A stretch of DNA of 24,687 bases, taken from a virus. The number at the start of each line of letters is the position of its first letter. The stretch's first letter is position 1. The stretch spans positions 1-24,687 of IMG/VR virus record IMGVR_UViG_3300017735_000094; one strand, given 5' to 3'. Positions 17,442 to 24,213 of this stretch are shown piece by piece. The notes beneath the pieces were generated by a model that worked only from the letters and a program-made list of their open reading frames with translations, made no database searches and was not told the origin of the DNA. The position numbers and the translations under genes are program-made.

Positions 17442-20400
17442 ATGGCGACCAAGATTTACATAAATACAGACTTAAAGGATTTGACCGCCAATGCGGTTGC
17501 TAACAAAAACAGACCATCTCAAGTAGTGCGGTTGCCGCAAATCGTTGAGGGCGAGACTGTTGACGTAGAATTGTCACTAGTTAATTCTAATGGTGGATAT
17601 GATTCAAGAAGTGGTGATGCAGCCGTTGATTTGGCTGTTGCAATATCTGCAAAAGGTGCGGTGGCAACATCTGGCACATTTACGCTGACAGCCGGAACTG
17701 AAACAACCGCAGCAATTCCTTATAATGCATCGGCTGAAGCGTTGCAAAATGCTTTAAATGATCTGAATAGTAAAACAGGGCCGTATGGATCAACAGTAAC
17801 TGTAAAAAAATTAAACATAGGGTCGTATCGTATTATTTTTGACGCAGTTGGCGCACGCACAATTTTCGGCGGCACAAGTATTGACATTGCACCAGAATCT
17901 GAAGTTACAATTGGAACATCGGTTGTTGGATCAGCAACGATCCAGGCGCAAATGATCATTGAGATTAGCCAACAGCCAGCGATTTACACTAGCACTTGGA
18001 CAACTGGATCAAACAAATTTAGCGGTCAATTAGACGCAAACACAGCCAGAGTGCAGGAATTGATTGCAACTGGGCAAGATGCATTTTTTGAAGTTAAAGC
18101 AGGCAATGATGTTCTTTGCCAAATACCAATATCTGTATTGTCGGCTGTTGCTGCACCAAACAGTTTGCCGGCACATGTTTTACCAAGCAACTTAAACGAT
18201 TTTGCTAATGATCCTAGCACTAATGGTAAATTTAACGTCACTAATTGGCTGACTGATTTATTAGCACCACACACAAAAGCTGTTTGGGGATATATAACAG
18301 GCACACTAAGTGACCAAACAGATTTGCAAGCAGCATTAGATGCTAAAGGTAGTGCAAGCGATGTATCTACCAACACCACAAACATAGCTACTAATACGAC
18401 AGAAATAGATACGCTATCTAACAGTCTAAGTAGTGTAGCTGATCAAACAGCTACCAACACTTCAAACATAGCTACTAACACATCTAATATATCAACAAAT
18501 GCTTCTGGCGTATCAACCAATGCTAGTAACATAGCAACCAATGCTTCTGACATTTCAACTAATGCTAGTGCTATATCAAGTAACGCTAGTGCTATATCTA
18601 CTAACTCTGATGATATATCTGCACTAGATTTATCAAAAGCACCTTTGGCTGGCCCAGCATTTACTGGCAACCCAACCGCTCCAACAAAAAATGCAGCTGA
18701 CAATTCTACAAGCATTGCAACGACAGCCTATGTAGATGCGCAAAATTCGCCAAACAACAAAGGGTTTTTTGCTAACCCAGCCGCATTGATTTCTGCATAT
18801 GCAACAGGTCAAAGTGGATGGTATGCCATCGTTGGAACTACTGACACTTTTTGGGTGTGGGATGCCGATGATTCTGCTTGGGAAGATACCGATTCCAATT
18901 CAGCAGGAACAGTAACATCTATTTCAGTAACTGGTGGAACCGGCATTGATTCAACTGGTTCACCAGTTACTGTAACTGGAACCATTGATGTTGCTTTAGA
19001 TTCAGCAACGCAATCAACTTTGGCAAATGTTTCAACAAACGCTTCTGCTATATCTACAAACGCAACCAACATTGCAACAAACACTTCTGATATAGCTACC
19101 AACACTTCTGATATAGCTACCAACACTTCAGATATAGCAACCAATGCAAGTGATATATCTACCAACACTTCTGATATATCTACTAACACTTCAGATATAG
19201 CAACCAATGCAAGTGGTATATCTACTAACACAGCTGCTATATCAACAAACACATCTAATATATCAACAAATGCATCTGGCGTATCAACAAATGCTAGTAA
19301 TATAGCTAGTAATACTAGCAACATAGCTTCTAACACTTCTGCTATATCTACTAATGTTGCAAATATATCAACAAACACATCTGGTATATCTAGTAACGCT
19401 TCTGATATATCGACAAACACATCTGATATAGCAACTAACGCTAGTGATATAGCAACTAACACTTCTAATATTGCTACTAATGCTAGCAACATAGCTTCTA
19501 ACACTTCTTCTATATCAACAAACACTTCTGATGTATCAACTAATGCTAGTGGTATAGCGACAAACGCTAGCAATATATCAAGCAACACAAGTGATATAGC
19601 AACTAACACATCTGCTATTGCTACGAATACATCTGCCATTGCAACAAATGCATCTGGCGTATCGACCAACGCATCTAACATATCGACGAACACTTCTAAT
19701 ATAGCGACAAACACAAGTGACATATCGACGAACGCTTCTGATATATCTACCAACACTTCTGATATAGCGACAAACGCTTCTGGTGTTTCTACAAATGCAT
19801 CAAATATAGCTAGTAACACTTCTAGCATATCAACTAATGCTTCCGATATATCTGCACTAGATTTATCAAAAGCAAATTTGGCATCGCCTGGATTTACTGG
19901 AAACCCAACCGCTCCAACTCAAAACGCAGCTGACAATTCTACAAAGTTGGCAACTACTGCTTACGTTGATGCGCAAAGTTCTCCAAACAATAAGGGATTT
20001 TTTGCAACTGAATCAGCACTAACAACTGCTTATGCAACGGGCCAAAGTGGATGGTATGCTATTGTTGGATCAACAGACACATTTTGGGTTTGGGATGCAG
20101 ACACATCTGCTTGGAAAAATACTAATTCAGATTCACAAGGAACAGTTACTTCTGTTTCAGTAACAGGAGGAACCGGGCTGGCATCAACTGGTTCGCCAGT
20201 TACTACATCTGGAAGCATTGCACTTGAACTTGATACTGCGACACAAAATACTTTGGCTAAAGTTGCAACAAATGAAAGTGCTATTGCAACTAACACTTCA
20301 GCTATCGCAACTAATACAGCCGATATTGCTAGTAACGATGCTACTTTAGTCTCTCATACAAATAACATTTTAATTAACGCATCTAACATTACTGCAAATC

Positions 20401-21539
20401 AAAATGCCATTGCCCTTAATACAGCTAAAGTTGGAATCACAACAGCTCAAGCAAATGCTATAACTAGTAATACGAATGATGTGCAGGTTAATGCAGCTAA
20501 TATAGCTCAGATTGCTACTGACACTAATACTAACACTAGCGACATAGCTACTAATGTAGCAGCACTTCTTCTTAAAGCACCAATTGCAGACCCAGATTTT
20601 ACTGGAACTGTTGGCATAGCAAAATCTGGTGTTAATGGTGTGCTAGATATAAATGGAAATGTGTATATTGAAAACGGAAAAATTGAAGGTGACACAGGAA
20701 GTCTTGATTTCGATAGTAATCAAGCTCAACTTATATTAGGAACTTTTAAATCAGATGCTATAAAAGTCGAAAGAGTTGATGCCAACAGCACACTAATATT
20801 TAAAGTAGATGCAAGTTCAGCAACTACTGGCAAAGCAACAATGCTGAATGCTGAAGTTAGTAATAATTTAACTGTTTCTGGTAAATCTGTTGTAAAAGAA
20901 ATAGAATCCTTTGGTGGTGCAGGAGGTAGTCCAGATGGAATTACTATAGATGCACTTCACGGCACGCTCAATTTAAATGCAGACGATAATGTTGAAGTTG
21001 ATGCGACTGGAACAATTAAATTAGACGCAGGTCAAACAGTTGCATTGTCTAGTGATCTCATAATCAATGACGGTGACATTGACGTTGATAGTGATCATCG
21101 TATTAGTGTCGGACAAGTAGTTACTAGCAAAATATTATGTGAGGGAGCAGGCGGTTCTGCAACTGCTCAACCAATAACATATGACTCTAAGGAACACCGC
21201 TTTAGAGATTATGATGGATCAACTAATGGGCCGACAAATATGTTGGTTGTAAATAAGTTTGATGGATATACTGGTGCAAGAGTTGGAATTAACAAAGACC
21301 CAAGTTCTAGTAACGCTGTTGCCCTACACATTGTAGCAGGTCAAAATTCTAGCACAGGTGTAAAAGACACAGGCTTAAAAGTTATTGGAGATGCTTTTTT
21401 TGATAACACAGTTAGAGTTGGTCATTATGCAACTGCTGATAGACCTACAAGCCCAATTGGATCAATTATTTACAATAGCACAACTCATGAATTTGAAGGT
21501 TTTTGCGGAAACGGAAAAGGTTGGAAGCAATTATCTTAA
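17442..21539 (+). CDS. Long tail fibre with 39-heptad stalk
   Basis: A 1365-residue protein that probably contacts the host. In order: an N-terminal beta domain (about 1-300) with a segment SGTFTLTAGTETTAAIPYNA; heptad array 1 (308-391, 12 repeats, 3 degenerate); module A (391-530) with the phage tail-repeat motif LSKAPLAGPAFTG and TTAYVDAQ; heptad array 2 (530-802, 39 perfect-register repeats); module B (802-941), a second copy of A; a decaying array 3 (about 941-997); a third KAPIADPDFTG motif; then beta-rich repeats (about 1060-1320) and the C-terminal signature ADRPTSPIGSIIYNSTTHEFEGFCGNGKGW common at ends of phage fibres. The low-complexity stalk suggests a long trimeric fibre. No S74-type self-cleaving chaperone domain is visible. 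No SD. Confidence 0.85.
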   Translation: MATKIYINTDLKDLTANAVANKNRPSQVVRLPQIVEGETVDVELSLVNSNGGYDSRSGDAAVDLAVAISAKGAVATSGTFTLTAGTETTAAIPYNASAEALQNALNDLNSKTGPYGSTVTVKKLNIGSYRIIFDAVGARTIFGGTSIDIAPESEVTIGTSVVGSATIQAQMIIEISQQPAIYTSTWTTGSNKFSGQLDANTARVQELIATGQDAFFEVKAGNDVLCQIPISVLSAVAAPNSLPAHVLPSNLNDFANDPSTNGKFNVTNWLTDLLAPHTKAVWGYITGTLSDQTDLQAALDAKGSASDVSTNTTNIATNTTEIDTLSNSLSSVADQTATNTSNIATNTSNISTNASGVSTNASNIATNASDISTNASAISSNASAISTNSDDISALDLSKAPLAGPAFTGNPTAPTKNAADNSTSIATTAYVDAQNSPNNKGFFANPAALISAYATGQSGWYAIVGTTDTFWVWDADDSAWEDTDSNSAGTVTSISVTGGTGIDSTGSPVTVTGTIDVALDSATQSTLANVSTNASAISTNATNIATNTSDIATNTSDIATNTSDIATNASDISTNTSDISTNTSDIATNASGISTNTAAISTNTSNISTNASGVSTNASNIASNTSNIASNTSAISTNVANISTNTSGISSNASDISTNTSDIATNASDIATNTSNIATNASNIASNTSSISTNTSDVSTNASGIATNASNISSNTSDIATNTSAIATNTSAIATNASGVSTNASNISTNTSNIATNTSDISTNASDISTNTSDIATNASGVSTNASNIASNTSSISTNASDISALDLSKANLASPGFTGNPTAPTQNAADNSTKLATTAYVDAQSSPNNKGFFATESALTTAYATGQSGWYAIVGSTDTFWVWDADTSAWKNTNSDSQGTVTSVSVTGGTGLASTGSPVTTSGSIALELDTATQNTLAKVATNESAIATNTSAIATNTADIASNDATLVSHTNNILINASNITANQNAIALNTAKVGITTAQANAITSNTNDVQVNAANIAQIATDTNTNTSDIATNVAALLLKAPIADPDFTGTVGIAKSGVNGVLDINGNVYIENGKIEGDTGSLDFDSNQAQLILGTFKSDAIKVERVDANSTLIFKVDASSATTGKATMLNAEVSNNLTVSGKSVVKEIESFGGAGGSPDGITIDALHGTLNLNADDNVEVDATGTIKLDAGQTVALSSDLIINDGDIDVDSDHRISVGQVVTSKILCEGAGGSATAQPITYDSKEHRFRDYDGSTNGPTNMLVVNKFDGYTGARVGINKDPSSSNAVALHIVAGQNSSTGVKDTGLKVIGDAFFDNTVRVGHYATADRPTSPIGSIIYNSTTHEFEGFCGNGKGWKQLS
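18363..18614 (+). repeat. Fibre heptad array 1 (12 repeats)
   Basis: Twelve 21-base units encoding residues 308-391. Units 3 and 4 (IDTLSNS, LSSVADQ) have lost the Asn; the others read (I/V/T)(A/S)(T/S)N followed by T, A or S. It is separated from array 2 by module A. Confidence 0.8.
18612..19031 (+). repeat. Fibre module A (copy 1 of a 420-base duplication)
   Basis: Encodes residues 391-530, from DISALDLSKAPL to STLANV. It aligns without gaps to module B at 19845-20264, exactly 1233 bases (411 codons) downstream. It includes the stretch SGWYAIVGTTDTFWVWDADDSAW, which looks like a small carbohydrate-binding-like or connector domain, but this is a guess. Confidence 0.9.
19029..19847 (+). repeat. 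Fibre heptad array 2 (39 uninterrupted repeats)
   Basis: 39 consecutive 21-base units encode (I/V)(A/S)(T/S)N(T/A/V)xx, residues 530-802, with no insertions or register breaks. Ile or Val opens each heptad and Asn is fixed at its fourth position. Codons are scrambled (Ser as TCT, TCA, AGT and others), but adjacent units near 19080-19125 are almost identical, suggesting recent unit duplication. Confidence 0.9.
19845..20264 (+). repeat. Fibre module B (copy 2 of a 420-base duplication)
   Basis: Encodes residues 802-941, from DISALDLSKANL to NTLAKV. It is collinear with module A without gaps; many codons are identical, with scattered substitutions (for example TDTFWVWDAD is kept while its neighbours vary). 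It is followed by a decaying third heptad stretch (about 20262-20429). Confidence 0.9.
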
Positions 21540-21563
21540 AAATTACTTAATGGAAATATTTAA

Positions 21564-21725
21564 ATGGAAGATCATATTGTTACACAGTTTAAAATTTGGG
21601 GTTTAGTTTTCTTGGGAGAAATAACTGCATTTAATCTTAATGCCGGGGCGCAGGCGTTCATGTATTGCTGCGCAGGATTGGCATCACTAGCAACCGCGTA
21701 TTACTACGTGTTCATCAAAAAATAA
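21564..21725 (+). CDS. Small hydrophobic protein, holin candidate
   Basis: A 53-residue protein (MEDHIVTQFKIWGLVFLG start, YYYVFIKK end). Two hydrophobic stretches, about 12-25 (IWGLVFLGEITAF) and about 31-50 (AFMYCCAGLASLATAYYYVF), are separated by a short Asn/Ala/Gly turn and followed by two Lys. Size and two-span layout fit a class II holin. It follows the fibre stop by 24 bases and is 4 bases upstream of the next membrane protein gene. An alternative ATG at 21550 is out of frame and gives only 18 residues. No SD. The function is inferred from composition and context. Confidence 0.5.
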   Translation: MEDHIVTQFKIWGLVFLGEITAFNLNAGAQAFMYCCAGLASLATAYYYVFIKK

Positions 21726-21729
21726 AATT

Positions 21730-22134
21730 ATGAGTTTAGAACTAATAGCTATGTTGGGTGGCGGTGTTAGCGGATTTGTCATGAAGATGATTGCGGCACA
21801 AGCTGAAGCACAATCAAGAAACTTTGAAATGATGATTCAAAAGCAAGTTGCTGCGGATCAATCAGCCAACGAAGCCGCACAACGTGGCGGTGTTTGGGTG
21901 CGCAGAATCTTTGTTGGGTTCATATTGTTTGCTGTAATTCTTGCGCCATTTATTTTGTCGCTGACATCAACACCGATCACAGTTGAAAAAGAAGGATTGG
22001 GCGGTTTTTTTAAATTGATTGGATTAAGCGCAGGCGGTTGGGAATCGTTGGAAGGTTTTGTTCTGCTTCCAGAAGTAAGACAATCAATGCTTGCCATCGT
22101 TGGATTTTACTTTGGCAGCTCACAAGTTAAATGA
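21730..22134 (+). CDS. Membrane protein, 3-TM holin-like candidate
   Basis: A 134-residue protein with three hydrophobic regions: about 4-22 (ELIAMLGGGVSGFVMKMIA), 57-80 (VRRIFVGFILFAVILAPFIL, the strongest) and 112-130 (LPEVRQSMLAIVGFYFGSS). The middle hydrophilic linker is Gln/Ala-rich. The ending 'VGFYFGSSxxK' resembles C-termini of the 3-TM holins of marine phages and gene transfer agents, the best family guess. It could also be a structural membrane protein. Together with its neighbours at 21564 and 22131 it forms a compact membrane-gene group. Its stop overlaps the next start (ATGA). Confidence 0.55.
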   Translation: MSLELIAMLGGGVSGFVMKMIAAQAEAQSRNFEMMIQKQVAADQSANEAAQRGGVWVRRIFVGFILFAVILAPFILSLTSTPITVEKEGLGGFFKLIGLSAGGWESLEGFVLLPEVRQSMLAIVGFYFGSSQVK

Positions 22135-22286
22135 ATGAAGTTTTGCAAATCATTACGTCTCTTTGGCCCATTGGTATTGGCGTAATTACGTTAATTATTG
22201 TGTTGGCTAGAATGCATTACAATTTAGAAGCACTTACTGAAAAGGTGAAAGTCTTGTTTGATTTTCACAACAAACGCGAAAAGTAA
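22131..22286 (+). CDS. Small single-span membrane protein, possible spanin-like
   Basis: A 51-residue protein (MNEVLQIITSLWPIGIGVITL start). One N-terminal hydrophobic span, about 7-26, is followed by a charged helical tail (RMHYNLEALTEKVKVLFDFHNKREK). The layout (N-terminal anchor, charged coil) resembles inner-membrane spanins, though it is very short; any anchored helper protein is possible. ATG overlaps the previous stop by four bases (ATGA), implying coupled translation. No lipoprotein partner (o-spanin) was seen overlapping or nearby. Too short for simple ORF lists. Confidence 0.5.
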   Translation: MNEVLQIITSLWPIGIGVITLIIVLARMHYNLEALTEKVKVLFDFHNKREK

Positions 22287-22319
22287 AACGCATTTGCATC
22301 GCATTAAGTGCCATAATTT

Positions 22320-23447
22320 ATGGCTACAAAAAAACAGCAGGACATACTCCATGATTACTTGGAGACGCAATCTTACAGAAAGACTGCTCGAAATTTGGGT
22401 GTCGATAAAAGATATATTGGCAGAACGATCAAATTGCTAGAAGCAAGGGGTGAAGTGCCTTGGCAATCTGAAGCACCAAGCCCGGCGCATTTGGAAGTCG
22501 GAAAGCGCACAGTTCAATACAATGCCGATGGCGAAGTAATCCAAGAATGGAGACGGCTTTATCCTCATGTGCAAGCCATGCAGGACTTCGTAGATGGTCT
22601 TTGCGATCAAGTTAAGGGGCAAGGCAAGGCTTCTGCCAGAAAGCCACTTAAAAGCGATTCTGATGACATTCTATTCGAGTTAGACATATTTGATGCTCAT
22701 GTCGGTATGTATGCCGACGAAAAAGAAACAAAGGATTCCGACTATAATTGCGACATAGCTGCAAAAAGAATGGTTGATGCTGCGCAAGGTTTGGCAAATA
22801 GGGCCAGCCGACCTTCAAAATGCGTTCTTGTGTTTGGAGGCGATATGATGCATAGCGACAACCGGCGCAATCAAACCGAGGCTTCTGGTCATGTTTTAGA
22901 CGTAGATACGCGCTACCATCGCGTGGTAGAATACTTGATTAAGGCGTGCCGAGATGTCGTAGAAATAGCATCTTCTGTCGCAGCCGAGGTCGAAATCGTA
23001 GTTTTAGAAGGAAATCATAGCTGGCACAGCGAGGTTTGGTTGGCAAAGGTGCTTGATGCTTATTACAGCAATTGCCCAAATATAAGCGTAAAAGCCGAGC
23101 CATCACCAAGAAAGCACCTGGTCTGGGGCGAAAATCTGTTAGTTTGGGCGCATGGAGACCGAATAGCTGCACAAAAGTGGCCGATGATCATAGCTGCTGA
23201 ATTTGCGCAGCAATGGGGCCAAACCAAATGGAGGCATTTAAAGTGCGGTCATATACACCATAAAAAAACAATCGCGCCGGTTACCATCGATGAGCAATCT
23301 GGATTGGTTGTTGAGTTCTTAGAAGCATTATGCCCAACCGATGCATGGCATACGGGCGCAGGTTTCGTGGGATCGCAAAAGGGCGCAAGCGCATTTGAAT
23401 ACCATAAGACCAGGGGATTAATAACACGCTACTATCAACCAATATGA
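22320..23447 (+). CDS. HTH-metallophosphoesterase protein
   Basis: A 375-residue protein. Residues about 5-45 look like a helix-turn-helix (YRKTARNLGVDKRYIGRTIKLL). Residues about 118-330 carry the calcineurin-like metallophosphoesterase motifs: FDAHVG with D125/H127, GGD at 173-175, GNH at 231-233, AHGD at 277-280 and GHIHH at 310-314. These bind two metal ions and hydrolyse phosphate esters; the substrate cannot be read from the sequence (nucleic acid end or nucleotide are likely in phage context). The HTH suggests a DNA-targeted enzyme. Related HTH-phosphoesterase fusions are frequent in phages beside replication genes. No SD. The next gene overlaps its stop (ATGA). Confidence 0.8.
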   Translation: MATKKQQDILHDYLETQSYRKTARNLGVDKRYIGRTIKLLEARGEVPWQSEAPSPAHLEVGKRTVQYNADGEVIQEWRRLYPHVQAMQDFVDGLCDQVKGQGKASARKPLKSDSDDILFELDIFDAHVGMYADEKETKDSDYNCDIAAKRMVDAAQGLANRASRPSKCVLVFGGDMMHSDNRRNQTEASGHVLDVDTRYHRVVEYLIKACRDVVEIASSVAAEVEIVVLEGNHSWHSEVWLAKVLDAYYSNCPNISVKAEPSPRKHLVWGENLLVWAHGDRIAAQKWPMIIAAEFAQQWGQTKWRHLKCGHIHHKKTIAPVTIDEQSGLVVEFLEALCPTDAWHTGAGFVGSQKGASAFEYHKTRGLITRYYQPI

Positions 23448-23683
23448 GAAATAGCGAGCAATCGGCTTTTAAAAACATAAAAGCGCAAATGTCAGAGCAT
23501 TTTGACAATTTTGTATTTGTTATTTTAGACGAAGATGGTGAGGTATTTTATGGTTTCAAAAACAAGATTATTGGAAAGGCATTGCTGGCCGAAGCGGTAA
23601 AAGAATTAAAAGAAGAAGATGAATTCGAAGACGATTATTTATGGGAAGAGGAGGGCGACGGATGGGAAGAATTGGAAGACTAA
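23444..23683 (+). CDS. Small acidic protein of unknown function
   Basis: A 79-residue protein. A short basic N-terminus is followed by FDNFVFVILDEDGEVFYGFKN, a beta-hairpin-like stretch found in various small phage proteins, and then a strongly acidic end (EEDEFEDDYLWEEEGDGWEELED). The acidic tail could mimic DNA or bind a basic partner. ATG overlaps the phosphoesterase stop (ATGA). The 3' end overlaps the next gene by 22 bases, and that gene's SD lies within its coding sequence. Confidence 0.6.
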   Translation: MRNSEQSAFKNIKAQMSEHFDNFVFVILDEDGEVFYGFKNKIIGKALLAEAVKELKEEDEFEDDYLWEEEGDGWEELED

Positions 23684-24213
23684 TTGCATTTAATGGTGCT
23701 AAAACTGTGGGAAAGACAACCATTGCCAAAGCGGTGGCTGCATTGAGCGATGATGTCGTAATATTATCATTTGCAACGCCTTTAAGGGCTATGTTAGAAG
23801 CTATGGGAATAGACCGGCACAACTTGGATGTTGGTAAAGAGGAACCAGTCAAAGGTCTAAATCAATCGGCTAGACAAATGCTTTGCTCGCTAGGAACCGA
23901 GTGGGGCCGACAAATGGTTTCACAAGAAATTTGGCTATGGGCTATGCAGCGTCAAATTGACCAAATTGTAAAAAAATCATTAAATCCAGGCGATCTAATA
24001 ATAATTATTGACGATTGTCGATTTGCTAACGAAGCCGAGTGGGTTGCTTCGCAAGATGGGGTTGTTGTCAAATTATACCGAGATGGCATTGATTATAGCC
24101 AAGATCATAGCAGCGAAGTGCCATTGCCAGACGAATTGATTGATTATGTATTTGATGCCGGTGGCGTTCAAAACTGCTTAAAAAATATTGTGCAGAATAT
24201 TCTCGCACATTAG
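23662..24213 (+). CDS. Deoxynucleoside monophosphate kinase
   Basis: A 183-residue protein that phosphorylates dNMPs to dNDPs to supply phage replication. Walker A GAKTVGKT at 12-19; FATPLRAMLEAMG (37-49) as in phage dNMP kinases; IIIIDDCRFANEAEW near the middle matches the conserved 'D-x-R-F-x-N-E-a' (LID/Walker B) segment of that family (T4 gp1-like). Start ATG 23662 is preferred over the in-frame ATG 23641 because GAGGAGGG (about 23647-23654) ends 7 bases before it and because the nucleotide loop then sits close to the N-terminus, as in the family. The length fits. Confidence 0.85.
   Translation: MGRIGRLIAFNGAKTVGKTTIAKAVAALSDDVVILSFATPLRAMLEAMGIDRHNLDVGKEEPVKGLNQSARQMLCSLGTEWGRQMVSQEIWLWAMQRQIDQIVKKSLNPGDLIIIIDDCRFANEAEWVASQDGVVVKLYRDGIDYSQDHSSEVPLPDELIDYVFDAGGVQNCLKNIVQNILAH

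Follow-up and report, generated by a model that had tools for sequence, protein, structure and literature searches.

The locus examined here raises the question of what is formed by 39 consecutive heptads in a phage protein that all carry Asn at the same position. The window (the whole 24,687-base virus record that was analysed) encodes a primase/helicase, a ParB-like/methyltransferase protein, a large terminase, a portal, a ClpP-like head protease, a major head protein and a tape measure. The array lies in a gene that was assigned to the tail fibres on three grounds, namely homology to an annotated fibre (residues 1–281 share 42 % identity with the Verrucomicrobia phage P8625 tail fibre), PHROG tail-fibre matches and a tape-measure gene upstream. 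The array is best explained as a trimeric coiled-coil stalk of this fibre, ~40 nm long and with Asn at heptad position d (N@d), a reading to which we assign a probability of about 0.8. The paper on the N@d motif is reportedly that of Hartmann et al., PNAS 2009. The fibre gene is laid out as follows.

17442–21539, plus strand: tail-fibre gene, 1365 amino acids, with P8625 tail-fibre homology and PHROG tail-fibre matches, located 3′ of the tape-measure gene
17442–18341, plus strand: N-terminal region, residues 1–300, ~81–83 % identical in three related viral contigs (L133, L135 and L136)
18348–18629, plus strand: coil 1, residues 303–396, including seven perfect (I/V)xxN heptads at 18468–18614
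18618–19022, plus strand: module A, a neck-like FTGNPTAPTKNAADNSTSIATTAYVDAQ element and a small domain, with relatives in many phage tail fibres
19029–19847, plus strand: coil 2, residues 530–802, the 39-heptad (I/V)xxN array, a helix in the AlphaFold2 model
19848–19868, plus strand: last in-phase heptad, ISALDLS in the translated sequence, with Leu at d
19851–20246, plus strand: module B, the second copy of module A, ~75 % DNA identity
20262–20570, plus strand: coil 3, irregular (I/V)xxN heptads, with perfect runs at 20262–20345 (four heptads) and 20367–20429 (three heptads)
20571–21536, plus strand: C-terminal region, the last part of which is common to contig L138 (84 of 150 residues identical)

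The N-terminal region (residues 1–300) would attach the fibre to the virion, and the C-terminal region is probably the distal tip. The C-terminal region (20571–21536) matched nothing in PHROG, nor any Pfam family above the curated cut-off, and a comparison of the whole fibre with Pfam returned nothing but sub-threshold chance matches, such as Syntaxin. The element that forms modules A and B is widespread in phage fibres and is present in a solved tail fibre (9k09, 18 chains deposited); the AlphaFold2 model of module A had a mean pLDDT of 55.8, with low confidence outside the helix. The host of P8625 is Puniceicoccales sp. IMCC8625; the window phage likely has a similar host, and the host bacteria are probably marine. 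Residues ~61–149 of the fibre (within 17442–18341) resemble the tail-tip cage protein gp23 and the tail-tube protein gp19 of a solved phage tail (9d93), and part of the N-terminus also resembles a major tail protein family.

Over 19029–19847, the reading frame of the fibre gene (17442–21539) holds exactly 39 heptads, or 273 residues. Position a is Ile in 34 and Val in five, position d is Asn in all 39, and position e is Thr in 21, Ala in 17 and Val in one. Of the remaining positions, b is Ser or Ala, c is Thr or Ser, f is mostly Ser and g is Asp, Asn, Gly, Ala or Ser. Only eight amino acids are used (S, T, N, A, I, D, V and G), with 15 Asp and no positively charged residue in each chain. The first-pass annotation had reported 39 uninterrupted (I/V)xxN(T/A)xx heptads. 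This stands for (I/V)xxN, which is kept in 39 of 39, but not for the full motif, which is broken once, by Val at e in heptad 16 (ISTNVAN), so that the strict run is 15 plus 23 heptads. Its statement that Asn occupies d in every heptad, and that a hydrophobic d is never used, proved correct inside the array; the Leu at d listed above belongs to the heptad that follows in phase. When the residues of the array were shuffled 20,000 times, the longest run obtained was four. Periodicity at 3.5 residues was strong, and the other (I/V)xxN runs of the fibre consist of seven, four and three heptads.

Among PDB sequences, the array matched UspA1 2qih (9e-8) and SadA 2wpr (1e-5) best, both in the same heptad phase, and SadA 2wpq also matched in phase. 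The closest solved sequences are N@d trimers, in line with the earlier comparison to the stalks of trimeric autotransporter adhesins (TAAs). In the solved UspA1 and SadA trimers, Asn stands at d in the core and chloride is present (PMC6839023). The array would form the longest segment of the stalk in a trimeric phage tail fibre, its three chains winding in parallel into a left-handed coiled coil ~40 nm long (273 residues × 0.148 nm; the ~41 nm given earlier was a fair estimate). Ile/Val at a would supply the hydrophobic layers, Thr/Ala at e would complete the N@d motif, and the three Asn side chains of each d layer would converge at the axis around an anion, likely chloride, or water. Published work credits N@d layers with setting the trimeric state and the correct register (PMC5940361), and such control would matter for 39 near-identical, slippage-prone repeats. 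In the fibre, the Asn layers may therefore favour the trimer and keep three long, near-identical repeats in register, and the stalk, as a spacer, would determine how far the distal domains extend.

A variant of this model keeps the same Asn-at-d core with cavities that hold mostly water, or water and anions in alternation, in which case the stalk would not be ‘ion-filled’ and the Asn layers would act solely on oligomeric state, register and flexibility. We consider this a genuine possibility, at somewhat less than even odds. Chloride is high in seawater, which would weigh against a mostly water-filled core if the host is marine. The N@d layers of published TAA structures are also reported to coordinate chloride, with no known exception, although one UspA1 layer was refined with 50 % chloride occupancy (PMC6839023). 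The published chloride affinity is weak or uncertain, which favours water: binding simulated in three trimers ranged from unfavourable to strong, a KD of ~0.1–1 M was inferred for one peptide, and the chloride affinity of Asn triads is reported not to have been measured directly in the model trimers (PMC12933892). The 15 Asp per chain, with no Lys or Arg, would further oppose anion filling of all sites. Anion occupancy of all 39 Asn layers at once, which would give each fibre a continuous file of ~39 chloride ions over ~40 nm and make stalk stiffness or assembly salt-dependent, is unlikely.

The placement of Asn in the core was examined by comparing slots in the in-phase heptads that flank (I/V)xxN arrays at viral and cell-genome loci. 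In the heptad following viral arrays, d was occupied by L/I/V/M/F in 68 of 99, as against 4–18 at b, c, e, f and g; in the preceding heptad, d was hydrophobic in 40 of 58, as against 2–6 at the same other slots. The register signal was weaker for cell-genome arrays, which include a His-containing family. Hydrophobic residues in the Asn slot just outside viral arrays, together with ISALDLS in the window, indicate, indirectly, that the Asn slot is a core position. The near invariance of Thr/Ala in the e slot (38 of 39) could instead be read as a shifted register, with Ile at d, Thr/Ala at a in the core and Asn at g on the flank. This is improbable, as hydrophobic residues around viral arrays prefer the Asn slot over the Thr/Ala slot (68 versus 17 in the following heptad, 40 versus 6 in the preceding one) and the solved homologues carry Asn at d in the same phase.

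AlphaFold2 modelled a single chain of the array and its flanks as one continuous helix of 286 residues (3–288 of 327) with no beta structure, at a mean pLDDT of 74.9 and with blocks mostly at 72–93; when a five-row alignment was supplied, pLDDT exceeded 90 at the start of the helix. The array is predicted to be alpha-helical from this single-chain model, which is weak evidence because repetitive sequence tends to be drawn as one helix. Helices rich in Ser, Thr, Asn and Gly have a low intrinsic helix propensity. A flexible or beta-structured low-complexity linker with no coiled coil would suit a composition restricted to S/T/N/A/I/D/V/G, but is a shade less probable even than the shifted register, given the exact seven-residue phase across 273 residues, the strong 3.5-residue periodicity, the helix in both AlphaFold2 models and the likeness to helical TAA stalks. 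The earlier proposal of an Asn-cored helical coiled coil is supported by the phase shared with SadA and UspA1, the single-chain helix and the hydrophobic residues in the flanking d slots.

At the DNA level, 38 of the 39 21-mers of the array are distinct and no exact internal repeat exceeds 31 bases. Comparison of the units gave pS of 0.61 and pN of 0.22, with dS of 1.25 and dN of 0.27 for the whole array, which corresponds to a dN/dS of ~0.2 with synonymous change near saturation. The Asn codons at d comprise 27 AAC and 12 AAT with no replacement (dN = 0). The array is not the product of recent DNA stutter: with almost all units distinct and silent sites diverged while Asn was kept, it has existed long enough for the silent sites to be scrambled, and its protein pattern is under purifying selection. 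An assembly artefact or a recent functionless tandem-repeat expansion is hardly credible in view of the distinct units, the short exact repeats and the low dN/dS, although arrays may break assemblies, as a related contig (L140, 88.9 % identity to window 19832–24200) begins inside the array end and its own array was therefore probably cut off by assembly.

Two further observations concern the DNA of the array. Within 19029–19847, ATA is the codon for 30 of the 34 Ile residues, compared with a share of 32 % in the other genes of the window; this bias was rejected as a general trait of such arrays, since arrays at other loci do not have it. A minus-strand ORF of 339 amino acids (18809–19828) runs antisense to the array, and its translation mirrors the repeat as a periodic hydrophobic sequence, most likely a mechanical by-product.

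The frequency of such arrays was assessed with a strict heptad, (I/V)xxN(T/A), and a loose heptad, (I/V)xxN. Apart from the window, 17 viral contigs and 113 bacterial contig stretches contain at least 10 strict heptads, and four viral contigs contain at least 18. The 39 loose heptads of the window form the longest array among the loci compared; by the strict motif, Muricauda sp. CP2A has 38 (matches 23982 to 24772 on its contig) versus 23 in the window. The array is thus of a known repeat kind, extreme in length and uniformity without being unique, and the earlier view that Asn-at-d heptads usually occur a few at a time was too narrow, as runs of 10–38 occur in other phages and bacteria. Similar arrays co-occur with trimeric modules (YadA head, YadA stalk, YadA anchor and Peptidase_S74 chaperone). 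Bacterial array proteins include clear trimeric autotransporters, one with a YadA anchor (L049) and one with ESPR, head, stalk and anchor (L052); in phages, L002 combines YadA_head repeats with runs of 24 and 10, while in L011 a Peptidase_S74 chaperone accompanies a run of 11. Muricauda and related Flavobacteriaceae (L019, L025, L031, L042, L054, L082, L088, L093, L116 and L117) encode proteins with many separate long (I/V)xxN arrays. A tblastn search of phages with the array gave no matches, for which the low-complexity filter is probably responsible, and blastn gave short matches only, among them Roseobacter phage CRP-143, which bears a few such heptads.

Relatives of the fibre N-terminus are encoded by six viral contigs, five of which cover residues 1–248 or more at 65–83 % identity, and their fibres contain 0–3 (I/V)xxN heptads per run. 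L136 has the N-terminus and one module copy (~80 % identical) with the array absent. L135 matches the window at ~80 % identity to either side of the distal fibre (~18348–21563), which it does not share, and the alignments of L133, L136 and L138 to the window end near 18348–18382. Relatives keep the N-terminus and vary the rest, and the stalk therefore appears to behave as an exchangeable spacer, which may be gained, lost or resized together with other fibre cassettes. Nucleotide similarity breaks at ~18348 and ~21563, as if the distal fibre were an exchanged cassette. The fibre of L133 has BspA-type leucine-rich repeats (Pfam), and such repeats adjoin (I/V)xxN heptads in phage fibre proteins of L133, L003, L008 and L013, the Pfam comparison covering L133.

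If the trimeric N@d stalk is correct, phage fibres use the stalk element of bacterial adhesins as an exchangeable spacer. The array would also offer a near-ideal natural system in which to test polar coiled-coil cores, as it has a single repeat unit, a single core type and no other chemistry, and its 39-fold repetition would amplify any salt effect on Asn triads.

The array shares with SadA (2wpq/2wpr) and UspA1 (2qih) the (I/V)xxN(T/A)xx heptads, their phase and Asn in the core. The solved fragments of those adhesins contain ~4 consecutive Asn-at-d heptads, as counted in the alignments, compared with 39 in the window fibre. Unlike TAAs, the array sits in a phage fibre with neither a secretion signal nor a membrane anchor: YadA_anchor (Pfam) was not found in the 1365 residues, ESPR had no match in the fibre, and no signal peptide was evident by eye at the N-terminus (MATKIYINTD). 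The P8625 tail fibre has residues 1–281 (42 %) and the type of gene neighbourhood in common with the window, but is without the array and carries YadA-head-like ‘SHAEG..TTASG’ repeats, which were seen by eye and have no Pfam match. We know of no long N@d array in the streptococcal phage hyaluronidase 2C3F. This protein is a homologue of the TAA short neck, and its neck DPTANDHAATKAYVDKAI resembles the NAADNSTSIATTAYVDAQ element of the window fibre, as judged by eye (PMC4786415). The phages and bacteria with long arrays (Muricauda sp. CP2A, L002, L003 and L005) have the same motif in 18–38 strict heptads, in proteins that differ from the window fibre; the Muricauda run is longer than that of the window by the strict motif and one heptad shorter by the loose one.
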